IMG/VR virus record: IMGVR_UViG_3300015261_000010
Span: 1-38,065 of that record
Direction: 5' to 3' (one strand)
DNA from: a virus
DNA: 38,065 nucleotides
Made by a program: the position numbers and the translations under genes. The notes under the pieces were generated by a model. It did no database searches. It was not told the DNA's origin and worked only from the letters and a program-made list of their open reading frames with translations. This document shows positions 33,507-34,536 of the stretch, in pieces. Each line of letters opens with the position of its first letter. The stretch's first letter is position 1.

Positions 33507-33515
33507 GGAGATCGC

Positions 33516-34523
33516 ATGAATGAGCTGGCTCTTTTCGCGGGCGCTGGTGGCGGAATACTTGGCGGCCACCTGCTTGGATGGCGAACCATTTGCGCCGTTG
33601 AGCGTGATGCCTACGCCGCACAAATTCTGGCGCAACGACAAAACGATGGAGCCATCCCAGCTTTCCCGATTTGGTCTGACGTGTGCAGTTTTGACGGAAG
33701 GCCATGGCGCGGCCTTGTTGACATCGTTTCGGGCGGCTTTCCCTGCCAAGACATTTCATCCGCCGGTACAGGCGAGGGAATCGGCGGGGCTCGATCGGGA
33801 CTATGGCGGCAAATGGCAAGAATTATTGGTGAGGTACGACCTCGATTCGTCTACGTGGAAAACTCACCAATGCTTGTGGGTCGAGGACTTGCCGTGGTCA
33901 TCGGTGACCTTGCCGAAATGGGGTATGGCGCACGATGGGGGGTTGTGGGAGCGGCAGACCTGGGAGCCCCTCACCAGCGCGACAGAATCTGGATTGTGGC
34001 CTACGCCCACGGTTCACGGGAACCACAACCGACCAGGGTCGAGCAAGAATGCAGGGTGGGGACTTTCGACAGCGGTGAAGCTGTGGACCACACCCAGCGC
34101 CAGCGACGGCAGACGGGGCGGAACAATCACCAGCAACATGACCGGCACCAGCCTTGCGCAACAGATCAGAACGCCGGAACGTTGGCCGACACCGACAGCG
34201 ACAGACAGCAAGCGCGGCGCCTCTCCCGCAGACAAACTTCGCAAATCGCCGGGGCTACCTGCTGCGGTGAAGATGTGGAGAACACCTCAGGCCAGCGACT
34301 CCAACAAGTGGAGCAACCAAAGCCTGGCGGAGCGTCAGGCCAAAGGGCAGCAGATTCGACTAAACACCCAGGTATCACCAGACGGTGGCCAGGGTGGCCA
34401 GTTGAACCCGGAATGGGTCGAGTGGCTGATGGGGTGGCCCATCGGGTGGACCGAATTAAAGCCCTTGGCAATGGACAGGTTCCGAGAGTGGCAGCAGCAG
34501 CATTCACCATCCTTTCTCAGTGA
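33516..34523 (+). CDS. C5 cytosine DNA methyltransferase
   Basis: A 335-residue enzyme that adds methyl to cytosine C5, with motif I LFAGAGGG (6-13), motif IV with catalytic Cys in GGFPCQD (Cys77), motif VI ENS (115-117), motif VIII QRDR (154-157) and motif X GNGQVP (318-323). All core motifs are intact, so it should be active and may guard phage DNA from host nucleases. The region between motifs VIII and X is rich in Arg and Gln and holds four repeats like LADTDSDRQQ. No restriction enzyme is next to it. The ribosome site GGAG lies 5 bp before this ATG. A second long frame covers the same DNA. Confidence 0.9.
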   Translation: MNELALFAGAGGGILGGHLLGWRTICAVERDAYAAQILAQRQNDGAIPAFPIWSDVCSFDGRPWRGLVDIVSGGFPCQDISSAGTGEGIGGARSGLWRQMARIIGEVRPRFVYVENSPMLVGRGLAVVIGDLAEMGYGARWGVVGAADLGAPHQRDRIWIVAYAHGSREPQPTRVEQECRVGTFDSGEAVDHTQRQRRQTGRNNHQQHDRHQPCATDQNAGTLADTDSDRQQARRLSRRQTSQIAGATCCGEDVENTSGQRLQQVEQPKPGGASGQRAADSTKHPGITRRWPGWPVEPGMGRVADGVAHRVDRIKALGNGQVPRVAAAAFTILSQ

Positions 34524-34536
34524 GCAATCAAAATGA
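33520..34536 (+). CDS. Overlapping +1-frame ORF, 338 codons, W-x-T-P repeat protein
   Basis: Starts 4 bp after the methyltransferase ATG, has no stop through the whole gene, and ends with ATGA on the start of the next gene, like most joins in this operon. The product begins MSWLFSRALVAEYLA and has four repeats near residues 159, 188, 221 and 252 (WPTPTVHG, WTTPSASD, WPTPTATD, WRTPQASD) and a Trp-rich end (WVEWLMGWPIGWTELKP). Ribosome site spacing (9 bp) is better than for the methyltransferase. I recall proteins of this style in other phages annotated as hypothetical, but cannot check. Translation is not proven. Confidence 0.6.
   Translation: MSWLFSRALVAEYLAATCLDGEPFAPLSVMPTPHKFWRNDKTMEPSQLSRFGLTCAVLTEGHGAALLTSFRAAFPAKTFHPPVQARESAGLDRDYGGKWQELLVRYDLDSSTWKTHQCLWVEDLPWSSVTLPKWGMAHDGGLWERQTWEPLTSATESGLWPTPTVHGNHNRPGSSKNAGWGLSTAVKLWTTPSASDGRRGGTITSNMTGTSLAQQIRTPERWPTPTATDSKRGASPADKLRKSPGLPAAVKMWRTPQASDSNKWSNQSLAERQAKGQQIRLNTQVSPDGGQGGQLNPEWVEWLMGWPIGWTELKPLAMDRFREWQQQHSPSFLSEQSK

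Follow-up and report, generated by a model that had tools for sequence, protein, structure and literature searches.

Two almost fully overlapping frames in a phage locus probably encode the catalytic and recognition chains of a C5 cytosine methyltransferase

M.AquI is a C5 methyltransferase made of two polypeptides, which are split between motifs VIII and IX so that the second chain carries the recognition region, motif IX, and motif X. In M.EcoHK31I (YGGCCR), a different reading frame within the gene of the large chain encodes the small chain. Motifs I–VIII and X and the predicted recognition domain of this two-polypeptide enzyme are on the large chain, and motif IX is on the small chain (PMC3404938). 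The multispecific methyltransferases of the Bacillus phages SPR, phi3T, and H2 are single chains, which carry, past the catalytic part and ahead of motif IX, several recognition units in tandem (PMC8936443).

The stretch of DNA analyzed here (the window) is a whole virus record of 38,065 bases, with a phage integrase and an AlpA-type regulator close to its right end. At 33516–34536 (+ strand, as for all features below), two long frames share an overlap of ca. 1 kb. P1 (335 aa; 33516..34523) has the features of an alpha-like chain of a C5 cytosine methyltransferase, and P2 (338 aa; 33520..34536), in the +1 frame relative to P1, those of a beta-like chain. A GGAG ribosome-binding-like site common to both frames and two start codons 4 nt apart (ATGAATGA; 33507..33522) were read from the DNA. 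The upstream neighbors of P1/P2 include an RNase_T-type exonuclease and an SMC/AAA ATPase. Since no restriction enzyme was recognized in a scan of seven genes near P1/P2, the pair looks like an orphan enzyme. We consider it probable that the two almost fully overlapping frames encode the two subunits of one C5 cytosine methyltransferase, with P2 supplying the recognition modules and motif IX. No description of this overlap in phages was found in the openly accessible literature.

In profile searches, P1 matched PF00145 (E = 4e-33) and phrog_363 (E = 5e-62). Its translation contains motif I (FAGAGGG; 33534..33554), motif IV with the catalytic Cys (GGFPCQ; 33732..33749), the motif VIII region (HQRDRIWIVAY; 33972..34004), and motif X (ALGNGQVP; 34461..34484). 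Motifs I, IV, VI, and VIII of C5 methyltransferases were invariant in the P1 alignment (alignment A4 for motif IV and for H153, R155, R157, and W159 of motif VIII), and the motif X pattern was present in 174 of the 179 P1 sequences. P1 thus holds motifs I–VIII and X together, as the large chain of the M.EcoHK31I type does. In the predicted P1 structure, residues 1–170 were mostly confident and the module region was unfolded; the match of the model to the M.HhaI fold covered the catalytic part only. The motif IX pattern was found in none of the P1 sequences of 179 distinct relatives. A recognition domain with motif IX was not found on the P1 chain itself, the module region being as variable as a non-coding frame.

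P2 matched phrog_1008 over residues 65–313 (E = 5.7e-26). Of 80 viral loci retrieved with P1 only, 75 had both frames at full length, as did 68 of 80 loci that the P2 profile picked up in bacterial genomes. When the P1 codons of the window were reshuffled synonymously, about 3 stops were expected in P2, and the chance of none was 0.008. The same test on 76 representatives gave 0 observed P2 stops against 336 expected, and the third frame of these representatives showed no depletion of stops. This set was assembled from loci with both frames open; therefore, 75/80 is the fairer figure. In 79 of 81 loci, the P2 start was located 4 nt 3′ of that of P1. The base that creates it, the third base of P1 codon 2, was T in all representatives, despite AAC being the commoner Asn codon elsewhere in P1. 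In several loci, TTA or CTC occupied the position of the P1 start while the ATG or GTG of P2 was intact. Nine loci (L011, L015, L017, L027, L032, L041, L059, L064, and L070) had TTA at the usual P1 start with the P2 ATG kept; P1 would need an upstream start in such loci, and an in-frame ATG in L011 suggests one.

At ca. 60% GC, long spurious frames are common in the window, and both the open frame and the motif of P2 might thus be by-products of GC content and codon bias. This explanation is hardly credible, since it is contradicted by the reshuffling tests, by the same layout at ca. 50% GC, and by the codon-position pattern described below. The comparative data suggest that P2 is translated. 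The record of Paenibacillus phage Shelly annotates the second frame ("g55 internal gene"), and most inspected records annotate one frame only. In L035, L056, L074, and L080 (ca. 1670–2940 of each locus), the frames were swapped inside the gene: one open frame had the start of P1 and the end of P2, or the reverse, as after a 1-nt indel. This may be due to sequencing error, decay, or a real switch. One phage (L002:4–402 and 1997–2975) had a second, partial P1/P2 overlap ca. 1.6 kb upstream of the first, and the downstream P2 contained a single stop codon, near residue 120.

With P2 in the +1 frame, the first base of a P1 codon is the third of a P2 codon, and the third base of a P1 codon is the second of a P2 codon; therefore, the location of the differences shows which protein is protected. 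In N-terminal segments, the difference rates were 0.21–0.29 at P1 position 3 versus 0.07–0.14 at position 1. P1 is the dominant frame in this part, where P2 identity was only modestly above that of the third frame, with no excess in the segment around motif IV. For the module region, 133 independent homologous pairs were picked by DNA identity alone. Their difference rates were 0.39, 0.12, and 0.09 at P1 positions 1, 2, and 3, respectively, and 130 of 132 decided pairs pointed in the P2 direction. Amino acid identity in this region was 0.87 in P2, whereas P1 (0.56) was close to the non-coding frame (0.54); the result was unchanged when the motif codons were dropped. Between the window and its nearest relative (L177; Pseudomonas sp. 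ok272), 131 module codons showed 67, 9, and 10 differences at the three positions, with 91% identity in P2 and 45% in P1. P2 is the constrained frame of the modules, and the P1 reading of the modules shows no detectable protein-level constraint besides staying open. The initial annotation had placed the units in the target-recognition region of the methyltransferase frame; selection of that reading does not agree with differences concentrated at P1 position 1 and a P1 identity equal to that of a non-coding frame. Since P2-preserving reshuffles would give about 9 P1 stops, the openness of P1 through the modules is itself selected. In the final part of the gene, the codon-position test showed balanced constraint on P1 and P2.

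One polypeptide produced by programmed frameshifts, with a first shift from P1 to P2 past motif VIII and a return to P1 ahead of motif X, would account for a selected frame that switches in exactly this way along the gene. However, two shifts would be required, P2 has a conserved start of its own 4 nt past that of P1 and is stop-free through its N-terminal part, and P1 is kept open through the modules. We therefore regard programmed frameshifting as very improbable and retain two separate chains as the preferred reading.

The module region contains four W-x-T-P-x-A/V-x-D/G units in the +1 frame, at steps of 87, 99, and 93 bp. The initial annotation had described these units, and both their positions and its readings of them in the methyltransferase frame were correct in the DNA. 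Their W codons are at 33997, 34084, 34183, and 34276, and the starts it had given (33994, 34081, 34180, and 34273) are the codons immediately before W. The +1 readings are WPTPTVHG, WTTPSASD, WPTPTATD, and WRTPQASD. In residue shuffles of this P2 stretch, more than two W-x-T-P were obtained in 0 of 20,000, and synonymous reshuffles of the P1 codons gave four W-x-T-P in 7 of 5,000. Because shuffles rarely or never yield four W-x-T-P, the repeats are not due to codon bias. Using a strict anchor for locating modules, we counted 449 W-x-T-P-type units in 173 of 179 distinct relatives, with 1–6 units per gene and a typical length of 29–42 aa. With units in most relatives and shuffles far below the observed number, the repeats withstand the two objections that the initial annotation had itself raised, namely relatives without repeats and shared codon bias.

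Clustering gave 28 module types with at least three members, which covered 300 of the 449 units, and 124 module arrangements were found among 173 genes. The order in the window is 1-8-2-4. Module 1 (WPTPTVHGNHNRPGSSKNAGWGLSTAVKL; 33997..34083) belongs to type 1, whose 37 members occupy several positions. Module 2 (WTTPSASDGRRGGTITSNMTGTSLAQQIRTPER; 34084..34182) is of type 8 (11 members), which also takes the first place in other genes, and module 3 (WPTPTATDSKRGASPADKLRKSPGLPAAVKM; 34183..34275) is of type 2 (26 members), which is elsewhere mostly first. Module 4 (WRTPQASDSNKWSNQSLAERQAKGQQIRLNTQVSPDGGQGG; 34276..34398) is of type 4, a terminal class with 19 members. Orders in other genes included 8-2-3-4, 2-3-4, 6-1-7-4, 6-1-7-0, 1-7-0, and 2-1-0. 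Types 0 and 4 were last in all cases (49/49 and 19/19, respectively), and the position of types 1, 2, 3, 6, 7, and 8 varied between genes. Some relatives had one module or little more. In short forms from Vibrio, Salmonella, and Klebsiella phages (L090, L092, and L096), both frames were ca. 230–250 aa, with little remaining between motifs VIII and X.

In 85-nt module windows, units of the same gene had a mean DNA identity of 0.371 and a maximum of 0.51, with none at 0.6 or above, and random module pairs had 0.368. The same-gene units are no more alike than random ones; therefore, the array did not grow by recent tandem duplication. The sole notable DNA similarity within the window, between 34059–34107 and 34251–34299 (73% of 49 nt), covers the P2 junctions GLSTAVKLWTTPSASD and GLPAAVKMWRTPQASD and remains beside this result. 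From these comparisons, exchange of ready-made units appears to be a better reading of array growth than recent duplication. The "duplicated" unit of the initial annotation is thus replaced by four distinct module types, each found in other genes in other orders. What stands of its overall reading is a dual-frame region at the position of target recognition; the duplication and the frame that it had assigned do not. Units vary between phages and therefore plausibly diversify specificity, as it had proposed, although P2, which it had seen as a second protein varied at the same time, is more likely the recognition part than a separate by-product.

Downstream of the modules, P2 carries a motif-IX-like stretch (LNPEWVEWLMGWPIGW; 34402..34449), which was near-invariant in alignment A3. 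The motif IX pattern was present in 160 of 179 P2 sequences at a conserved position. A profile alignment of P2 with single-chain enzymes had motifs IX and X in register, without reaching significance. We tentatively assign motif IX to P2 by pattern and position. The motif X pattern was found in none of the 179 P2 sequences, and the second chain in the window is thus not of the M.AquI type.

In contrast, some relatives have motif X on the second chain. The P1-frame gene of the Streptomyces phages Vash and Samy and the Mycobacterium phage Goose stops just past motif VIII; PTP modules, a motif-IX-like stretch, and motif X are all on the second chain, which is read in the P2 frame. The P1 frame of Paraburkholderia adhaesiva (L233) and of a Spirochaetia genome (L252) has several stops through intact P2 modules, and motif X is on the P2 chain. 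Once P1 need not reach motif X any more, its reading of the modules decays and P2 persists. The P2 sequences of the window family were homologous to the second chains of all these split relatives (E = 1.6e-67). In four other loci (L223, L226, L245, and L247), the P1 frame was closed at or before the modules with P2 at full length; three of them (L223, L226, and L247) retain motif X downstream in the P1 frame, where it would be severed from motifs I–VIII.

These relatives bear on two further explanations. In one, P1 alone would be the whole methyltransferase, with the recognition domain in its own frame, and P2 would be a separate protein that shares the duplicated DNA; the P1 frame is indeed open through the module region and has every motif but IX. 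We consider this improbable, since P1 identity in the modules is that of a non-coding frame, the region is predicted to be unfolded, none of the P1 sequences has the motif IX pattern, and L233 and L252 have lost the P1 reading but kept P2 intact. Alternatively, P2 might be a real modular-repeat protein outside the methyltransferase, such as an accessory or anti-restriction protein, that overprints the gene. A Pfam search with P2 gave no match above the cut-off, sequence searches of the PDB with P2 and with IX–X fragments gave no relevant match, and P2 alone was predicted with low confidence (pLDDT 56); moreover, the pairing of P1 and P2 as subunits is something that we infer. However, a poor fold of P2 alone would be expected for a chain that folds on its partner, and equally for a chain that is not yet understood. 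The P2-frame chain carries motif X in the split relatives, the modules lie between motif VIII and motifs IX–X, which is the place of the recognition domain in methyltransferases, and P1 has no conserved recognition region or motif IX of its own. An unrelated function of P2 is therefore unlikely, if somewhat less so than a self-sufficient P1, and P2 most likely belongs to the enzyme as its recognition part. The predicted structures fit an alpha/beta enzyme model without proving it.

In the two-subunit enzyme that we propose, P1 would make the catalytic domain (motifs I–VIII) and the closing motif X. P2, probably translated from the same ribosome-binding site, would supply the tandem recognition modules of ca. 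30 aa (W-P-T-P-x-A) and motif IX. The two chains would then join in the order I–VIII (P1), recognition (P2), IX (P2), and X (P1). The P1 translation of the module DNA would be an unselected linker that need only stay open to reach motif X. Whole modules are exchanged, with lengths that keep both frames open. The specificity would change in this way, and one enzyme would probably have several specificities, with which an orphan phage methyltransferase could protect phage DNA against restriction. Of this model, the dual frames, the frame selected in each part, the shuffling of modules, and the split relatives come directly from the sequence comparisons, whereas translation of P2, its pairing with P1, DNA reading by the modules, and the role against restriction are inferred. 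A broader proposition, on which we are evenly divided, is that in this large phage and prophage methyltransferase family the fully overlapping second frame is a combinatorial set of ca. 30-aa DNA-recognition modules, each with its own target and exchanged between phages as cassettes that keep two frames, with the P1 reading as unselected filler. Specificity could then be read from the module order like a code.

Long same-strand overlaps in which both proteins are selected have rarely been established in bacteria and phages. The P1/P2 overlap is present in hundreds of phage and prophage loci, the selected frame changes along the gene, and in some relatives the first frame has decayed following the move of motif X to the second chain. 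Judged from these sequences, the comparative support for the overlap appears unusually strong. These results suggest that a common type of methyltransferase is half-annotated. The usually called frame has no protein-level conservation where specificity would be decided; therefore, a prediction of specificity from P1 would mislead. If the modules are recognition units, a modular recognition code can be tested directly through the module types and orders that recur.

Compared by description with M.EcoHK31I, P1 resembles the large chain in carrying motifs I–VIII and X, and P2, with its putative motif IX, may correspond to the second chain. However, P2 spans all of P1 and has several modules. Selection on the recognition region acts in the P2 frame, the opposite of M.EcoHK31I, for which the predicted recognition domain was assigned to the large chain (PMC3404938). 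The split of M.AquI between motifs VIII and IX is like that of the actinophage pairs, L233, and L252. In contrast, it is P1 and not the second chain that carries motif X in the window, and the frames overlap almost fully. Several units in tandem are shared with the SPR, phi3T, and H2 enzymes. Those enzymes are single chains, whereas the array of the window belongs to a second chain read in another frame and the catalytic motifs to P1, and multispecificity is putative. Besides the P2 match to phrog_1008, gene 50 of the Streptomyces phage Samy is annotated as related to that family. On the other hand, its label, "DNA methyltransferase", does not describe a P2-type chain; P2 and related chains gave no match to the C5-methylase model. 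The P1/P2 family thus appears to unite the split-enzyme and tandem-recognition ideas in a single locus with almost complete overlap.
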